Assembly: GCA_026982355.1 (NCBI GenBank)
Contig: JALSHG010000094.1
Coordinates: 1-48,092 of the forward strand
DNA length: 48,092 bases
Reading direction: 5' to 3'
Source of the DNA: Thermodesulfovibrio sp.
GTDB taxonomy: Bacteria > Nitrospirota > Thermodesulfovibrionia > UBA6902
The notes under the pieces are model-generated. The model was not told the origin of the DNA. It saw nothing but the letters and a program-made list of their open reading frames with translations, and did not search any database. The translations under genes and the position numbers were made by a program. Of this stretch, positions 15,849 through 32,053 are shown piece after piece. Every line of letters begins with the position of its first letter. The first letter of the stretch is position 1.

Positions 15849-18800
15849 ATGCCTGAAGGAACAGAGACAGGAAATGATGTCGGCCTCCCGGACGTGATTA
15901 ATCTCAGGGATGAGATTAAAGGAGAGGTCCTGTTTGAAAACACGTACGAGCTTCCGGAGGGCAGGCTGGCTGTTGCGGTCGGCAGGGAGGGTGATGTTTA
16001 CCGTATCATCGTGCGTAGCGGCATATCCGGGCCGTTGCTCATGCACTGGGGGGCGGCTGTGCACGCGCCTTTTGAATGGACCCTCCCCCCTGCCTCCATG
16101 CTCCCTGAGGGAACAACCGTGGTTGAAGGCGCCGCCGCGCAGACCCCCTTTGTTTTAAACCGTCTCGACCTCCTCGTCAGTGAAAAAGACGCCCCCCTCG
16201 GCATCTCTTTTGTGCTTAAAAACACTGATACGGGGGCCTGGCTGAAAAATCACGGGCAGAACTTCTACGTCCCTGTGAAGGCTCCCGTGCAGGGTGAGGG
16301 GGGGATTGCCCCCCGGCTTTCTTATATTGCCGGGGAGATCATCCATGCGGAAACGGGCCGCCACTCATGGACACTGATGCACCGTTTCAACCTGTGCCAC
16401 GACCTGCTGGACAGGGTCGGGGGCGACATCGAGGGACTTGCGCTCCTTTTTGTGTGGATGCGTTATTCCGCTGTCAGGCAACTGGACTGGCAGCGCGACT
16501 ACAACACAAAGCCCGCGGAACTGAGCCACGCCCAGGACCGGCTTACTCTCAAACTCGCCGGCATATATACCGGCGAGCCCGGAAGCCGCGAGCTCGTGCG
16601 CCTGATAATGACCACACTCGGGCGGGGCGGTGAAGGTCAGCGAGTGCGTGACGAGATACTCAAGATCATGCACCGGCACAGGATCAAGGAAGTCAGCGGC
16701 CATTTCATGGAGGAATGGCACCAGAAGCTCCATAACAACACCACTCCCGACGATATAGTCATCTGCGAGGCGTACCTGAATTTCCTGAGAAGCGACGGGG
16801 ACCTCGGCCTGTTTTACAGAACCCTTGAGGCCGGAGGCGTTACAAAAGAGCGCCTGGAGAGTTTCGACCGGCCTATCGTGACCCCCCCGGATTTTGTTCC
16901 GCACCTGAAGGACGGATTGATACATGACTTTGAGAATTATCTCAGGATTCTTAAATCGGTTCATTCCGGCACTGACCTTGAAATCGCAGCTCATGCCGCC
17001 GGATACCTGCTGGACGGTGAACTGCGGGAAATGACTGAGTTCATATTGCGGCACAGGGATGACGGCCATGCCGCGATGCCCGATCTTGCCGCAGGGATCA
17101 CCGCAGTGCGCAACCGCCTCGCCGGCGTTTTAAACACTGACACGGATAACGGAAGGGTCCGCGATATGCTCTATCTCGACCTTGCCCTGGAGCAGTTCCT
17201 GCGTGTTGTGCTGGAACGGGGCATTCACATGCTTTCGGACAGGGACCGGCTTGTTGAATTAACGGGCATGGCGGTTGAGAACATGATGCTGTCGCATGAC
17301 AATCCCGAACTCCCGGCATGTCTACGCCACTGGCAGCGCCTTAAGGACATGCCGCGTTTCAGCCGGGACTGGTCCCTTCACGCCAAGTCCGTCACCGACC
17401 GGCTCGGCCGCATCATAGGAGACTTCAGCGAGTATTACTACAGGCTGTTCCAGGACAAGGCCGGGTTTCTGGGCAGGGCATTTCATGCGGACTCCTGGGT
17501 GATAAACCTCTTTACCGAAGAGGTGGTGCGGGGCAGGCCCGCATTCGTGCTTTCCACTCTCATACGCCGTCTCGACCCCGTACTGCGCGGCAGCGCGGGG
17601 ATCGGGGACTGGCAGGTCATCAGCCCCGGCCGGGCGATGGGATATGTGGAGGTGGTTGATGAATTGAGGGCTGTCCAGGGCAGGGCATTCACGCGGCCCA
17701 CGGTCATCATCACGGACAAAGTGAGCGGAGATGAAGAGCCGCCGGAGGGGGTCAATGTGGTTATCACGCCCGATCCGGTCGACCTTGTATCACATGTGGC
17801 GGTCCGCGCCAGGAACGCCAGGCTGCTGTTTGCCACGTGTTACGACAGGGAGCGCTACGAGCGGCTTAAGTCATTGAAAGGACATCTGCTCAATCTCGCG
17901 GTTAATACAGCGGGCGACGTGGTGTTTGAAGAGATTACGGATGAGATGACCGCCGCACCCCCGCAGGCGAAGATAAAACTGAAAAAGATACACCGTCCGG
18001 GGTTCTTCTCCTATGCCGTTCATTCAGCGGATTTCGGGGAGGGAGTGGTCGGCGGCAAATCCAACAACCTGAGGAGAATTATGGACAGGCTGCCGGAGTG
18101 GATTCACCTGCCCCCTTCAGCAGCCCTGCCGTTCGGCGTGTTTGAACATGTGCTTGACCTGGATATCAACAGGGATGTCGCCGCACGCTACAGGGACCTC
18201 CTGTCACGGGTTGATGACAACCCTGAAGAGATTCTTGCCGCCGTACGCAGGGTCATGCTTGAGCTCAGGCCGCCCGATGAGCTTCTCCCTTCGCTTCGCG
18301 CCGTCATGGAGCATGCAGGTCTCGGATGGCCTGAAAATCAGGAGGATGCCTGGACATGCATAAAGCGTGTCTGGGCGTCCAAGTGGAATGAAAGGGCGTA
18401 CCTGAGCCGCAGGGCCCGGGGGATCCCGCATGAAGACGTGTTCATGGCGGTTATCATCCAGCAGGTTGTAGAGGCGGAATATGCATTTGTAATCCATACC
18501 GCCAATCCCTTTACCGGCGACGGGAACGAGCTGTACGCAGAAGTGGTGCCGGGGCTCGGGGAGACGCTGGTGGGCAATTACCCGGGCAGGGCACTGAGCT
18601 TCACCTCCTCTAAGGACACGCCGGAGCCGCACATCCTGTCTTATCCGGGCAAGAGCACCGGGCTTTACGGCGGCGGGCTTATCTTCCGTTCGGACTCAAA
18701 CGCCGAGGACCTTGCGGAATACGCGGGCGCAGGGCTCTATGACAGCGTCATGCTGAATCCGCCGCGCGAAGCAATAATCGACTATACGGATGAACCCATT

Positions 18801-18950
18801 GTATGGGACGAGGATTTCAGGAGGAATATCCTCTCGGCCGTAACAGAGATCGGAATTATCATCGAAAGGGCGGCAGGCCTTCCGCAGGATATAGAAGGCG
18901 CTTATGCAGACGGCCTGTACCATGCGGTGCAGACACGCCCCCAGATGTAA
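15849..18950 (+). CDS. Alpha-glucan water dikinase-like protein
   Basis: A 1033-residue protein resembling plant and algal alpha-glucan water dikinases, which transfer the beta-phosphate of ATP to glucosyl units of starch or glycogen through a phosphohistidine. The N-terminal 90 residues contain a carbohydrate-binding-like pattern (LLMHWGAAVHAPFEWTLPP). The phosphohistidine site is DLVSHVAVRARNARLLFATC with His649, which matches the GWD pattern LSHVxVRARN more closely than PEP synthase or PPDK. The C-terminal ATP-binding region contains FRSDSNAEDLAEYAGAGLYDSV near residue 945. It is shorter than the plant enzyme (about 1400), with one rather than two obvious N-terminal sugar-binding modules. 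It precedes a TIM-barrel gene and a GH13 gene, consistent with glucan turnover. Confidence 0.85.
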   Translation: MPEGTETGNDVGLPDVINLRDEIKGEVLFENTYELPEGRLAVAVGREGDVYRIIVRSGISGPLLMHWGAAVHAPFEWTLPPASMLPEGTTVVEGAAAQTPFVLNRLDLLVSEKDAPLGISFVLKNTDTGAWLKNHGQNFYVPVKAPVQGEGGIAPRLSYIAGEIIHAETGRHSWTLMHRFNLCHDLLDRVGGDIEGLALLFVWMRYSAVRQLDWQRDYNTKPAELSHAQDRLTLKLAGIYTGEPGSRELVRLIMTTLGRGGEGQRVRDEILKIMHRHRIKEVSGHFMEEWHQKLHNNTTPDDIVICEAYLNFLRSDGDLGLFYRTLEAGGVTKERLESFDRPIVTPPDFVPHLKDGLIHDFENYLRILKSVHSGTDLEIAAHAAGYLLDGELREMTEFILRHRDDGHAAMPDLAAGITAVRNRLAGVLNTDTDNGRVRDMLYLDLALEQFLRVVLERGIHMLSDRDRLVELTGMAVENMMLSHDNPELPACLRHWQRLKDMPRFSRDWSLHAKSVTDRLGRIIGDFSEYYYRLFQDKAGFLGRAFHADSWVINLFTEEVVRGRPAFVLSTLIRRLDPVLRGSAGIGDWQVISPGRAMGYVEVVDELRAVQGRAFTRPTVIITDKVSGDEEPPEGVNVVITPDPVDLVSHVAVRARNARLLFATCYDRERYERLKSLKGHLLNLAVNTAGDVVFEEITDEMTAAPPQAKIKLKKIHRPGFFSYAVHSADFGEGVVGGKSNNLRRIMDRLPEWIHLPPSAALPFGVFEHVLDLDINRDVAARYRDLLSRVDDNPEEILAAVRRVMLELRPPDELLPSLRAVMEHAGLGWPENQEDAWTCIKRVWASKWNERAYLSRRARGIPHEDVFMAVIIQQVVEAEYAFVIHTANPFTGDGNELYAEVVPGLGETLVGNYPGRALSFTSSKDTPEPHILSYPGKSTGLYGGGLIFRSDSNAEDLAEYAGAGLYDSVMLNPPREAIIDYTDEPIVWDEDFRRNILSAVTEIGIIIERAAGLPQDIEGAYADGLYHAVQTRPQM

Positions 18951-18962
18951 AACCGCAATGCT

Positions 18963-19030
18963 AACCTTAATGTTGTATAAGCGGGCAGGAGAGTCTCCCC
19001 GCAATGTTTTAATGCAACTGTACTGTAAGG
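18963..19030 (+). repeat. Palindromic repeat A, short copy
   Basis: 68 bp from AACCTTAATGTTGTATAA to ATGCAACTGTACTGTAAGG, with the internal block deleted. It starts 13 nt after the dikinase stop and ends 10 nt before the next start codon, supplying TAAGG. Confidence 0.8.
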
Positions 19031-19040
19031 CTGATTGTAT

Positions 19041-19850
19041 ATGAAAAAAATCAGGATCGGCAATCAGACCTCTTTTTCCGCTCCCACACCCGTCCTGCCT
19101 TTTGAATACGCAATAGAAAGCGGGTTCGATGCCTTTGAATGGTTTCCTGACAGGCACGGCGCGGCGGGATGGGACCCGGGCTGCATGGATGCGGGGACAA
19201 GACGTTACATCAGGGACAGGGCCGCTGCACACGACATCGCCCTGTCCGTGCATGTATCTCTGCAGGGCAATCCCCTTGAGGCGCGGACACACGGGATAAT
19301 ACTTCGGGACATGGACTTTGCGCGGGATATAGGGGCCGGCCTGGTGAATATCCACCTGTATGCGGAAAGGGGGCCTGACGATTACGCGGCGGCGCTTATG
19401 CCTTTTGCAGGGCTTGCGGCGGAGGCCGGCATAAGCCTGGCCATAGAAAACACGCCCCTCACCCCGCCCGGCGATTTCAACAGGGTCTTCAGCCGCCTGA
19501 GAGAACCGGGGGGAACGGCACACGTGGGGATGTGCCTTGACCTCGGCCATGCAAACCTGTGCGGTCACACGCGCAACGACTACCTGAGATTCATCGACCT
19601 GCTCGATCCCCGGATACCGGTTATCCATATTCACATGCATGAGAATTTCGGCGACTGCGACAGCCACCTGCCGCTCTTCACGGGGCCTGCCGGCAAAGAC
19701 CCCCTCGGCCTGGGTGAATTCATAAAGCGCATGAAGGGACGCGGGTTTTCGGGATCGGTTATTCTTGAACAGTGGCCGCAGCCCCCGTTACTGCTGAACG
19801 AGGCGCGCGACAGGCTGTATTACATGTGGAATGAGAAAGGAGCATCATGA
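19041..19850 (+). CDS. Xylose isomerase-like TIM-barrel protein
   Basis: A 269-residue protein of the sugar phosphate isomerase/epimerase (AP endonuclease family 2) fold. Metal-site-like segments are HVSLQGNP, NIHLYAE, AIENTPL, MCLDLGHANL, HIHMHENFGDCDSH and VILEQWP, following the usual strand-end positions of Glu, Asp and His ligands. The reaction is unknown; members include sugar epimerases and endonuclease IV. Its 4-nt overlap with the GH13 gene indicates coupled translation and a role with carbohydrate. ATG at 19041 was chosen over a TTG at 19035 because TAAGG lies upstream at suitable distance. Confidence 0.75.
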   Translation: MKKIRIGNQTSFSAPTPVLPFEYAIESGFDAFEWFPDRHGAAGWDPGCMDAGTRRYIRDRAAAHDIALSVHVSLQGNPLEARTHGIILRDMDFARDIGAGLVNIHLYAERGPDDYAAALMPFAGLAAEAGISLAIENTPLTPPGDFNRVFSRLREPGGTAHVGMCLDLGHANLCGHTRNDYLRFIDLLDPRIPVIHIHMHENFGDCDSHLPLFTGPAGKDPLGLGEFIKRMKGRGFSGSVILEQWPQPPLLLNEARDRLYYMWNEKGAS

Positions 19851-21139
19851 TGAGAGAACCTGAAAAGATGATCATCTACAACATCTTCCCTCTCCTCGCA
19901 GGCAAGGTTTCCAACTGGGAAGGACATTTCAGAAGGGCGGCCGGCATGGGTTTCAACTGGATATTTGTAAACCCCATACAGTACCCCGGCGTTTCCGGCA
20001 GCCTTTACTCCATAAAGGACTATTTCCGGTTCAACCCCGTTATTGTCGACGGCGCGGGCCCGGAGCCACCGGAGGAGCAGGTGAAGAAGGCGGTCGGGCA
20101 GGCGGAGAAACTCGGCCTCAGGATGATGATCGACCTCGTGATCAACCACTGCGCCGTGGATTCGGATCTGATAAGGGAGCACCCGCAGTGGTTTGTGTGG
20201 GAGAAGAAAGGGCGGGTGGCACACCCGTTCTGTTATGAAAACGGCAAAAAGGTCGTATGGGGGGACCTTGCGCGCTTCAACCACAGGCAGAGCAGGGACA
20301 AAGAGGGCCTGTACCGGTTTTTCTTCAGCGTCGTGAAGTTTCTGATCGAACTCGGTTTCAGCGGGTTCAGGTGTGACGCCGCATACCAGGTTCCGGGGAG
20401 ACTGTGGGAGAGGCTCATCAGGGAGACAAAGGCTCTTTACCCGGACACGCTGTTTTTCGCGGAGACGCTCGGGTGCACGCCCGATGAGACCGTAAGGACC
20501 GCCGGGGCCGGGTTCGACTATATATTCAACAGTTCAAAGTGGTGGGACTTTCACAGCCCGTGGCTCATGGAGCAGTACAATCTCACGCGGCGGGCCGCAC
20601 CGTCCATAAGCTTTCCCGAGAGCCACGACACGGTGCGGCTCTGTGAAGAGCTTGGCGGCAATACTGACGGCCTGAAGCAGCGCTATCTGTTCTCCGCGCT
20701 GTTTTCAGCAGGCACAATGGTACCCATGGGATTCGAATTCGGCTTCCGCCGGAAGCTGCATGTCGTAAAGACAAGGCCCGGCGACTGGGAAGAGACCGGC
20801 ATTGACCTGACCTCGTTCATAAGGCGGGTGAATCTGATAAAAGCCGGCAACGGTATCTTCATGGAAGAATCGGCCGGCGAGATATTGCACTCCGAAAACC
20901 CGGACATACTCCTGCTCAGGAAAACCTCATCCCGTTCACCTGAAAAGGCGCTCCTCGTGCTGAACAAGGACATCCATAATCACCGGCATTTTCATGCCGG
21001 CAATATCTGTGACCTCATCGAGGCAGGGGCGCCGTGCACGGATGTGTCCCCGGAATATCCCCTTGACCCGCTGCCCCGGCCCTTCTCGTACGACCTCAGG
21101 CCCGGCCAGGGCATAGTGCTGATCTCGCCGGGCGGATGA
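19847..21139 (+). CDS. GH13-family alpha-glucan-active enzyme
   Basis: A 430-residue alpha-amylase-superfamily protein. The four GH13 regions are intact: DLVINH (96-101), GFRCDAA with nucleophile Asp177, AETLG with acid/base Glu206, and ESHDT with transition-state stabiliser Asp261. No signal peptide is seen, so it is probably cytoplasmic. It is shorter than most GH13 enzymes: the C-terminal beta domain is small and the N-terminal domain missing. Substrate specificity (hydrolase, debranching or transferase) cannot be read from the motifs. Overlap with the preceding gene and proximity to the dikinase suggest use of phosphorylated or storage glucan. It is convergent with xseB, with a 27-bp gap. 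Confidence 0.85.
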   Translation: MMREPEKMIIYNIFPLLAGKVSNWEGHFRRAAGMGFNWIFVNPIQYPGVSGSLYSIKDYFRFNPVIVDGAGPEPPEEQVKKAVGQAEKLGLRMMIDLVINHCAVDSDLIREHPQWFVWEKKGRVAHPFCYENGKKVVWGDLARFNHRQSRDKEGLYRFFFSVVKFLIELGFSGFRCDAAYQVPGRLWERLIRETKALYPDTLFFAETLGCTPDETVRTAGAGFDYIFNSSKWWDFHSPWLMEQYNLTRRAAPSISFPESHDTVRLCEELGGNTDGLKQRYLFSALFSAGTMVPMGFEFGFRRKLHVVKTRPGDWEETGIDLTSFIRRVNLIKAGNGIFMEESAGEILHSENPDILLLRKTSSRSPEKALLVLNKDIHNHRHFHAGNICDLIEAGAPCTDVSPEYPLDPLPRPFSYDLRPGQGIVLISPGG

Positions 21140-21166
21140 GCGCCCGTGGTTTTTAGGAGGGCGGTC

Positions 21167-29964: not shown

Positions 29965-30333
29965 ATGATACCAGGTGAATATATTCCAGGCAAAGGGGAC
30001 ATAGAGCTGAACAGGGGCAGGAGGTCGGTCTCCCTCGTGGTGAAAAGCACGGGAGACAGGCCGGTGCAGGTGGGCTCGCATTTCCACTTCTTTGAGGTCA
30101 ACAGGGCCCTGGTCTTCGACAGGGAAAAGGCATTCGGCATGCGCCTGAACATCCCTGCCGGCACTGCCGTAAGGTTTGAGCCCGGCCAGGACCGTGAAGT
30201 CTCGCTCGTGGAATTCGGCGGGGGCGGGAACATTTACGGATTAAACGGCCTGACAGAGGGCTGCGCCGCGGACGAGCGGGTCAGGAGGGCCGCGTTCGGC
30301 AAGGCGAGGGACAAGGGATTCGGAGGTGCATGA
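29965..30333 (+). CDS. ureB: Urease beta subunit
   Basis: A 122-residue urease beta subunit. Family features are [19 protein letters not shown] at the N-terminus, the core [39 protein letters not shown] and the end of the barrel strand EVSLVEFGG. The C-terminal tail is about 15 residues longer than in compact forms. Ribosome site AGGAGG. Its end overlaps the ribosome site of ureC; the stop at 30331-30333 is directly followed by the ureC ATG at 30335. Confidence 0.97.
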
Positions 30334-30334
30334 T

Positions 30335-32053
30335 ATGAGCCTGAACATGGACAGAAGACAGTATGCGGGCATGTTCGGCCCAACAACGGGAGACAGGATA
30401 AGGCTTGCCGATACGGAGCTGTTCATAGAGGTGGAGAAGGATTTCACGAGATACGGCGACGAGGTGAAGTTCGGCGGGGGCAAGGTCATAAGGGACGGGA
30501 TGGGCCAGTCACCACGGGCGACGGCAAAAGGCGGCGCTCCGGACCTCGTTATAACCAATGTGATCATCCTTGACTACCGGGGCGTCGTAAAGGCGGACAT
30601 AGGGGTGCGTGACGGCAGGATATGCGGCATAGGCAAGGCCGGCAATCCCGACCTCATGGATGGAGTGGACCCCGACCTGGTAACAGGAGCCTCGACAGAG
30701 GTGATAGCAGGCGAGGGCCTGATCGCCACCCCCGGCGGGGTGGACAGCCATATACATTTTATATGTCCACAGCAGGTAGGGGAGGCGATATCATCGGGCA
30801 TCACCACCATGATAGGCGGCGGAACAGGCCCTGCAACCGGGACGAACGCCACCACATGCACTCCCGGTGAATGGAACATGCACAGGATGCTCGAGGCCGC
30901 CGACGCCTTTCCGGTCAATTTCGGTTTTCTCGGCAAGGGCAACTCTTCACGGCCCGAAAGCCTGAGGGAGCAGGTGGAGGCGGGCGCCGTGGGACTGAAG
31001 CTGCATGAGGACTGGGGCACCACGCCTGCCGCAATAGATACATGCCTGTCCGTGGCGGATGAATACGACGTGCAGGTCGCCATACACACGGATACCCTTA
31101 ATGAGGCCGGTTTTGTCGAGGATACAATAGCCGCGTTCAGGGGCAGGACAATACATACATACCATACAGAGGGTGCGGGCGGAGGCCACGCCCCCGACAT
31201 AATTAAAGTCTGCGGGCAGGCCAATGTACTGCCGTCTTCGACAAACCCGACCATGCCGTTTACAGTCAACACCATGGAGGAACACCTCGACATGCTCATG
31301 GTATGCCACCACCTCGACCCCCGTATACCCGAGGATGTGGCCTTTGCGGATTCAAGGATAAGGGCAGAGACCATCGCGGCGGAAGACATCCTGCACGACA
31401 TGGGCGCCTTCAGCATAATGGCCTCCGACTCCCAGGCAATGGGCAGGGTTGGAGAGGTCGTCATCAGGACATGGCAGACAGCGGACAAGATGAAGAGGCA
31501 GAGGGGGAGGCTCAAAGAGGAAAAGGGCGGCAACGACAATGTCAGGGCCGCAAGGTATGTGGCGAAGTACACCATAAACCCTTCAATAGCCCACGGGATT
31601 GCAGGTTATGTAGGCTCTGTCGAAAAAGGCAAGCTCGCGGACATCGTGCTGTGGGAGCCTGCATTCTTCGGCGTAAGGCCGAAGATGGTCATAAAGGGCG
31701 GGTTTATCGCCTACGCCCAGATGGGCGACGCCAATGCCTCGATCCCCACTCCGCAGCCTTACCTGATGAGGCCCATGTTCGGCGCATACGGCGGGGCTGT
31801 TTACAGCACATCACTGACGTTCCTGTCAAAGGCCGCTTTCGACAGGGACGTACACGGGCGCCTGGGTCTCCGGAAAAGGGCGGCGTTTGTTGAAAACTGC
31901 CGCAAGATCGGCAAGAAGGACATGATCAACAACAACTATCTCCCGCATATCGAGGTCGACCCTGAAACATATACGGTGAAGGCGGACGGCAAGGTGCTGT
32001 GGTGTGAACCCGCGGAGACACTGTCGATGGCGCAGAGGTATTTCCTGTTTTAG
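30335..32053 (+). CDS. ureC: Urease alpha (catalytic) subunit
   Basis: A 572-residue urease alpha subunit carrying the dinuclear nickel site. The carbamylated bridging lysine is Lys222 in [10 protein letters not shown]. The mobile flap has Cys324 and His325 in MVCHHLDP. Nickel-ligand histidines are in GVDSHIHF and in the segments IHTDTLNE and [14 protein letters not shown]; an Asp is in ASDSQAMGR. All expected residues are present, so the enzyme should be active. The ATG at 30335 follows GGAGG with 8 nt spacing; GTG at 30326 is inside the ribosome site. Confidence 0.98.

Follow-up and report, generated by a model that had tools for sequence, protein, structure and literature searches.

Organization of the locus

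The DNA analysed here, called the window, is a stretch of 48,092 nt from a Thermodesulfovibrio sp. assembly (GCA_026982355.1, contig JALSHG010000094.1, positions 1 to 48,092). Its forward strand carries, one after another, genes for a glucan, water dikinase (GWD), a TIM-barrel protein and an enzyme of the GH13 family (Table 1), which likely form a bacterial operon for glucan phosphorylation, with the TIM barrel as the proposed eraser of the phosphate. An earlier note, made from the sequence, had pointed to these three open reading frames (ORFs), to the motif SHVAVRARN in the dikinase and to a 4-nt overlap between the TIM and GH13 genes, and all of them lie where it placed them. The ORFs were called mechanically, and starts and some overlaps are approximate. 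The TIM ORF as called spans 19035–19850 (+) and encodes 271 aa from a TTG codon. Because the relatives start at the equivalent position, the true start is most likely the ATG at 19041 (MKKIRIGNQ). The overlap of the TIM and GH13 genes has the sequence ATGA (19847–19850), with AAAGGAG just 5′ of it. The gap between the GWD and TIM genes is 84 nt long and contains a single copy of a genome-wide post-stop repeat; therefore, these two genes are adjacent here, without tight translational coupling. Most relatives have GWD and TIM genes that overlap or are separated by no more than a few tens of bases. Terminator-like hairpins in the region show no enrichment over shuffles.

Table 1. Features of the dikinase locus and copies of the repeat element in the window.
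Feature	Position	Strand	Evidence
GWD1-type glucan, water dikinase, 1033 aa	15849..18950	+	Pfam GWD1_pHisD, Ig_N_CWD1, PPDK_N; plant GWD core 9ha9, E 9e-98; tree
N-terminal CBM45-like Ig domain, residues 39-143	15963..16277	+	Ig_N_CWD1, E 4e-19; five aromatics
GWD core domain, residues 171-583, with WHQKLHNN	16359..17597	+	alignment to 9ha9 and 9qvi; 42% identity to plant core
Phosphohistidine domain, catalytic H649 in SHVAVRARN	17610..17945	+	GWD1_pHisD
Circularly permuted ATP-grasp domain: HTANP, then RSDSNAED, then QTRPQ	18336..18950	+	motif order
Post-stop repeat copy in the GWD-TIM gap; genome-wide element, not operon-specific	18965..18986	+	
AP_endonuc_2 TIM-barrel protein, 269 aa, putative trimetal phosphoesterase	19041..19850	+	PF01261, E 1e-23; invariant ligands; 5zhz alignment; model pLDDT 91.6
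GH13-family enzyme, 430 aa, intact D177, E206, D261	19847..21139	+	PF14701, E 8e-22; PF00128, E 3e-8
Terminator-like hairpin, then T run, at the end of the GH13 gene	21129..21146	+	consensus scan only
CCTTAATGTTGYATAAGCSGGC copies	1189, 4511, 5619, 10959, 14232, 14651, 15734, 18965, 24526, 29261, 29734, 32066, 32877	+	
CCTTAATGTTGYATAAGCSGGC copies	34690, 45585	-	

The dikinase

In the Pfam scan, the dikinase matches Ig_N_CWD1 (PF23166) at its N-terminus, GWD1_pHisD (PF22973) over residues 588–699 (E 5e-37; 126 bits, cut-off 27) and PPDK_N over residues 830–909 (E 1e-23). The GWD core is located between the starch-binding-type and phosphohistidine domains and aligns with the solved core of chloroplastic alpha-glucan water dikinase, in 9qvi (E 3e-97) as in 9ha9. 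The N-terminal domain retains the aromatic series W-W-F-W-F described for CBM45 (PMC7569903) as W67, W77, F121, W131 and F139. By its family match and these aromatics, it is read as a CBM45-type starch-binding domain for which glucan binding is predicted, which bears out the sugar-binding pattern seen by the earlier note. The window GWD has a single CBM45-like domain, and many relatives have two (L052, L037, L031, L050). The phosphohistidine motif occupies residues 648–656, and H649 is kept in all 23 aligned sequences. The plant redox motif CFATC is replaced by LFATC, and residue 660 is leucine in 20 of the 23 and cysteine in none. Judged by these residues, the likeness to plant GWD1 covers the catalytic parts of the enzyme and does not extend to thioredoxin-type regulation.

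The order of the ATP-grasp motifs is permuted in 65 scorable bacterial GWD1s and unpermuted in none, while the second dikinase of related loci, GWD2, is unpermuted in nine cases and permuted in none. A tree of the core domain, from which PEP synthases were left out since domain content had settled the identity, places plant GWD and the bacterial GWD1s together and apart from the GWD2s with a support of 100, a value from a quick method that is to be read with a warning about long branches. The plant core forms a long branch, placed approximately near the base; it is 42–44% identical to many bacterial members and close to no single one. BLAST gives the plant core at most 337 bits against GWD1 and at most 39 against GWD2. 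By domain order, residues and tree, the window dikinase is thus classified as a GWD of the plant GWD1 type, as the earlier note had suspected, and the grouping with PEP synthases that it had set as the contrary outcome was not found. Phosphorylation of alpha-glucan at C6 is probably its activity, as predicted by analogy with the plant enzyme.

The TIM barrel and the GH13 enzyme

The TIM protein belongs to PF01261 (AP_endonuc_2, Xylose isomerase-like) by its Pfam match. Nine residues are invariant in 29 proteins, namely H73, H107, E138, D169, H172, H198, D209, H211 and E245, numbered from the TTG. A profile search returned MJ1311 (E 8e-15), Mycobacterium tuberculosis endonuclease IV (5zhz; E 3e-5) and TTHB071 (E 0.01), and no others. 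In the alignment to 5zhz, eight of the nine invariant residues fall on zinc ligands of endonuclease IV; the remaining one, E245, lines up in the alignment to MJ1311. For the Escherichia coli enzyme, we take the zinc ligands to be H69, H109, E145, D179, H182, H216, D229, H231 and E261. The fold comparison of the model (predicted local distance difference test, pLDDT, 91.6) gives Z values of 24.4 for MJ1311, 22.5 for the epimerase 4pfh and 20.6 for endonuclease IV 1qtw, with D-tagatose and D-psicose 3-epimerases among the best structural matches (Z 21–22). In the AP endonuclease 2 superfamily, the number of bound metals ranges from one to three, and one member, CbiR, is a phosphodiesterase (PMC7733943). 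The CbiR model scores 34.1 bits on the TIM protein, below its curated cut-off of 105.

The best Pfam match of the GH13 protein is PF14701, the glucanotransferase domain of glycogen debranching enzyme, ahead of PF00128. Its Asp–Glu–Asp triad of D177, E206 and D261 is invariant in 18 proteins. The earlier note took this enzyme for a hydrolase; the triad is intact, but the best match points to a debranching-enzyme glucanotransferase, so that a hydrolase is just one option.

Conserved neighbourhood and second dikinases

The gene neighbourhood was compared over 92 non-redundant GWD1 loci, 79 of which were testable, that is, had at least 1 kb of downstream sequence. In 45 of the 79, GWD1 is directly followed by the TIM barrel, which stands alone in 21 and is fused to GWD2 in 24. 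A GH13 gene lies within the same-strand run in 20 of the 79. The order GWD–TIM–GH13 itself is kept in the window and in L052/L081, L071, L083, L084 and L136. Thus, the three-gene order of which the earlier note had wanted the conservation checked recurs across phyla.

GWD2 has an unpermuted ATP-grasp and usually a TIM barrel at its N-terminus; no CBM20 was matched in it at E 0.01. A plant PWD sequence, used as a lead only and not as a test, is 38% identical to GWD2 over 830 residues and 25% to GWD1. The gene 3′ of GWD2 encodes a protein of 340–380 aa, here called U353, which is fused to GH13 in some loci. No Pfam or NCBIfam match was found for U353, and a weak match to OHCU decarboxylase (E 0.02) was lost in the profile search, so that this candidate was rejected. 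The model of U353 is a TIM barrel (pLDDT 89.8), its profile aligns with that of the TIM family (E 2.5e-6), and His, Asp and Glu residues resembling metal ligands are conserved; by model and profile comparison, U353 is a divergent TIM barrel. Neither GWD2 nor U353 was found in the window's own genome, an assembly of 119 contigs.

The GWD2–U353 module (TIM::GWD2–U353 in L083) and the GWD1–TIM–GH13 module can sit apart in one genome, as in L083 and in L052 with L053 (both genome G312), and the two look like separable cassettes. Directly upstream of GWD1, on the same strand, eight loci of Magnetominusculus and its kin (L037, L039, L043, L045, L130, L135, L138, L140) have a conserved protein of 190–230 aa with a hydrophobic, membrane-like segment, and no Pfam match was found in the single example tested. 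The GWD1 gene at L143:9045-12489 is broken into overlapping frames of 860 and 308 aa, through a frameshift or an assembly error.

Distribution

Of 396 genomes sampled from the window's phylum, 39 have a GWD1_pHisD match above the cut-off, and the 14 control genomes have none. One scan of GTDB genomes gave 138 relatives of the window GWD, and the taxonomic make-up is taken from the 80 that were listed. These are mostly Nitrospirota and deltaproteobacterial groups; the others include anammox bacteria (Scalindua L076 and L080, Anammoxibacter L083), other Planctomycetota, Verrucomicrobiota, an Acidobacteria metagenome-assembled genome (MAG) and Gammaproteobacteria. The nearest among the matches listed are the MAGs L071 and L072, one labelled Nitrospirae, at 87–90% identity over the full protein length. 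Most loci come from MAGs, and some relatives' loci are on long contigs, including single-contig genomes of more than 3 Mb. No viral relatives of the dikinase were found in IMG/VR.

Link to glucan metabolism

The wider neighbourhood of the GWD genes includes genes of alpha-glucan metabolism, in agreement with the glucan locus proposed by the earlier note. One neighbour cluster, in 12 loci, contains GlgA and/or GH57 branching-enzyme-like genes, where the branching-enzyme reading was made from the start of the sequence without a Pfam scan. Other clusters contain DUF3536/GH57 (eight loci), a further GH57 group (six) and a GH77 group (six). The window's genome encodes GlgA, three alpha-glucan phosphorylases and four GH57 matches. 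By computation, the dikinase co-occurs with glycogen synthase: GlgA is present in 39/39 dikinase-bearing genomes and in 9/20 relatives without the dikinase, these controls being those that happened to be listed (Fisher p 6e-7). The GlgA subfamily NF001905, which resembles starch synthase IV (SSIV), is above its cut-off in 30/39 and 0/20, respectively (p 4e-9), and within the window's own family in 5/5 against 0/16 (p 5e-5). For the NF001905 GlgA of the window's genome, the nearest solved structure is Arabidopsis starch synthase 4 (445 bits; next 237).

Interpretation and alternatives

The operon probably acts on a bacterial storage glucan, and the cycle that we infer would run as follows. GWD would bind the storage alpha-glucan via its CBM45-like domain, H649 would be autophosphorylated with the beta-phosphate of ATP, and a glucosyl residue would then receive this phosphate, probably at its C6 position by analogy with plant GWD. 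The resulting monoesters would loosen or solubilise the glucan chains, and the opened polymer would be a substrate for the GH13 enzyme and, alongside it, for the alpha-glucan phosphorylases and GH57 enzymes of the cell. The TIM barrel, as a trimetal phosphoesterase, would then take the phosphate off again, the role that SEX4/LSF2 fill in plants and laforin in animals. In relatives, a PWD-like GWD2 fused to a TIM barrel and followed by the second divergent TIM barrel U353 would provide two writers and two erasers. The family membership of the dikinase, the gene order, the fusions, the conserved active sites and the co-occurrence with glycogen synthase are computational results, and from them the activity, its site on the glucan, the phosphatase role and the direction of flux are inferred. 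The degradation route proposed by the earlier note is tentative: the neighbours of GWD include the biosynthetic GlgA and GH57 branching-enzyme-like genes. Given these neighbours and the three alpha-glucan phosphorylases of the genome, the modification may contribute to glucan synthesis or solubility no less than to degradation.

Several observations weigh against this interpretation. The plant thioredoxin disulfide motif is absent in the window GWD and in 77 bacterial GWD1s (CFATC in 0/77); in plants, the motif is frequent, but it is missing from some algae and lycophytes (PMC7569903) and is regulatory, not needed for membership. In 26 of the 79 testable loci, no TIM, GWD2, U353 or GH13 gene lies within six genes downstream, so the partner genes are not obligatory. 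The genome counts for GlgA ignore shared ancestry and are not phylogenetically independent. Lastly, the TIM fold scores are alike for 3-epimerases and endonuclease IV (Z 20–24), so that the fold does not decide the chemistry, and related multi-metal barrels also perform chemistry other than phosphoester cleavage.

For the TIM barrel, a trimetal phosphoesterase that removes phosphate from glucan is a tentative prediction from the residues, with chances a little under even. It is preferred because all nine ligand positions are invariant, and phosphoglucan is suggested as the substrate because the TIM protein adjoins one dikinase and is fused to another. The earlier note had called the protein isomerase-like; a sugar isomerase or epimerase acting on released sugar or sugar phosphate, next to a dikinase that does phosphorylate glucan, would suit the Pfam family name and the 3-epimerases among the structural matches. 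We regard it as rather unlikely, since H73, H107, D209 and H211, the additional ligands of the endonuclease IV trimetal site, are invariant, and mononuclear isomerases are not known to require such ligands. Moreover, MJ1311, the nearest solved relative by sequence, aligns with the same ligands and is followed by endonuclease IV, and the fusion to a dikinase suits a phosphoglucan more than a free sugar. Another multi-metal enzyme acting on glucan, such as a TglH/MbnB-type iron enzyme or a DgpB/C-type C-glycoside cleaver, is a distinctly weaker candidate: TglHI (8hci) and DgpB–C (7drd, 7xrf) are among the Foldseek matches, but they rank below MJ1311 there, and the profile search gives only MJ1311, endonuclease IV and TTHB071. 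What remains is left unassigned.

Returning to the operon as a glucan-phosphorylating unit, its two general rivals concern the dikinase. A PEP synthase-like or other small-molecule dikinase unrelated to glucan would share the ATP-grasp fold, and NCBIfam PEP synthase models do match a short stretch of about 75–76 residues; their best score, though, is 60.5 bits against a cut-off of 883, and the Pfam scan of the window dikinase found no PEP-binding C-terminal domain. Separate PPDK/PEP-synthase-type proteins are encoded in the window's genome, and the plant GWD core finds no match among the latter by BLAST. With the GWD core and CBM45-like domain present and glucan genes among some neighbours, this alternative is highly improbable, and PEP synthase identity in particular was ruled out by domain content, sub-cut-off scores and the own-genome comparison. 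A recent transfer from algae or plants, or contamination, which would leave the gene without a settled bacterial role, draws on the transfer proposed for the bacterial GWDs in the tree of PMC6260743. It is improbable in view of the 138 relatives over several phyla, the bacterial operon structure, the gene fusions, the long contigs and the ordinary base composition of the window at the locus. Furthermore, the long plant branch stands by itself in the core tree and does not arise close to the tips within a bacterial group.

A wider proposal, which we put forward as speculation and doubt more than we believe, is that several phyla including anammox bacteria have a full plant-style set in one or two gene cassettes (GWD, a PWD-type dikinase, metal-dependent TIM phosphatases, a dedicated GH13 enzyme and an SSIV-like GlgA), make and cycle a phosphorylated and perhaps starch-like glucan, and that plant GWD and PWD descended from the bacterial set. 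If it were true, the TIM barrels would be a new class of glucan phosphatases, and GWD and PWD would not have been invented by plastid-bearing eukaryotes.

Repeat element and other observations in the window

The 22-bp element CCTTAATGTTGYATAAGCSGGC has 15 copies in the window, with 0 expected, and 12 of them follow a same-strand stop codon at a distance of 1–80 nt. GC-rich sequence resembling a hairpin often comes directly after the element. Its 21-base core, with at most two mismatches, has 380 copies in the 2.6 Mb genome, and the backwards control has 0. Among the loci examined, a 17-base core occurs only in those of the window's genome. Elsewhere, Rfam 5_ureB_sRNA matches positions 30495–30777 (-) with 56.9 bits against a cut-off of 40. 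As this match is antisense to a long ORF (30326–32053, +), possibly a urease gene, it may reflect coding conservation only.

Comparison with known systems

GWD has been described as limited to organisms that accumulate starch and as dating from the origin of the primary plastid, and some bacterial GWD sequences in the tree of the Goniomonas genome paper of 2018 were tentatively ascribed to lateral transfer (both in PMC6260743). Its tree and our analysis both include bacterial GWD sequences, and the passages of it that we cite contain no gene context, TIM barrel or second dikinase. Glycogen phosphorylation in organisms without laforin, including bacteria, has been called a matter of speculation (PMC13011383). 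No report of a bacterial GWD operon or its function was found in the open-licence literature, which is not proof of absence; the predicted operon, the TIM–GWD2 fusions, the paired dikinases and the candidate eraser were likewise met in none of the papers found there. The conserved operon makes bacterial glycogen phosphorylation directly testable in E. coli. It would allow glucan phosphorylation to be modelled with one operon, would supply a candidate for a new class of glucan phosphatases and data on the origin of the plant enzymes, and would name large proteins that NCBIfam covers only by fragments of PEP synthase models.

With plant and algal GWD1 (EC 2.7.9.4; the potato R1 protein), the window GWD has in common the CBM45-like domain with five aromatics, a core of 42% identity over about 410 residues, the phosphohistidine site and the permuted ATP-grasp order; for the plant enzymes, we take the motif to be SHV[AS]VRARN and the order to be permuted. 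The two differ in the number of CBM45-like domains, two in plants and one in the window GWD, in the change of CFATC to LFATC, and in the operon that the window gene forms with TIM barrel and GH13 genes. Plant PWD (EC 2.7.9.5) shares the unpermuted ATP-grasp order with bacterial GWD2, but it carries CBM20 at its N-terminus, where GWD2 has a TIM barrel, and the window's own genome yielded no GWD2. Endonuclease IV and CbiR (PF01261) share with the window TIM protein the barrel and the nine metal-ligand positions of a trinuclear site; unlike them, the window protein has no DNA or cobamide context. Its gene is linked to that of a glucan dikinase, and fusions to such dikinases occur in relatives. 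Finally, the likeness to SEX4, LSF2 and laforin would lie in the proposed role only, the clearing of glucan phosphate for hydrolases: these are dual-specificity cysteine phosphatases, whereas the window TIM barrel would be an unrelated, metal-dependent enzyme.

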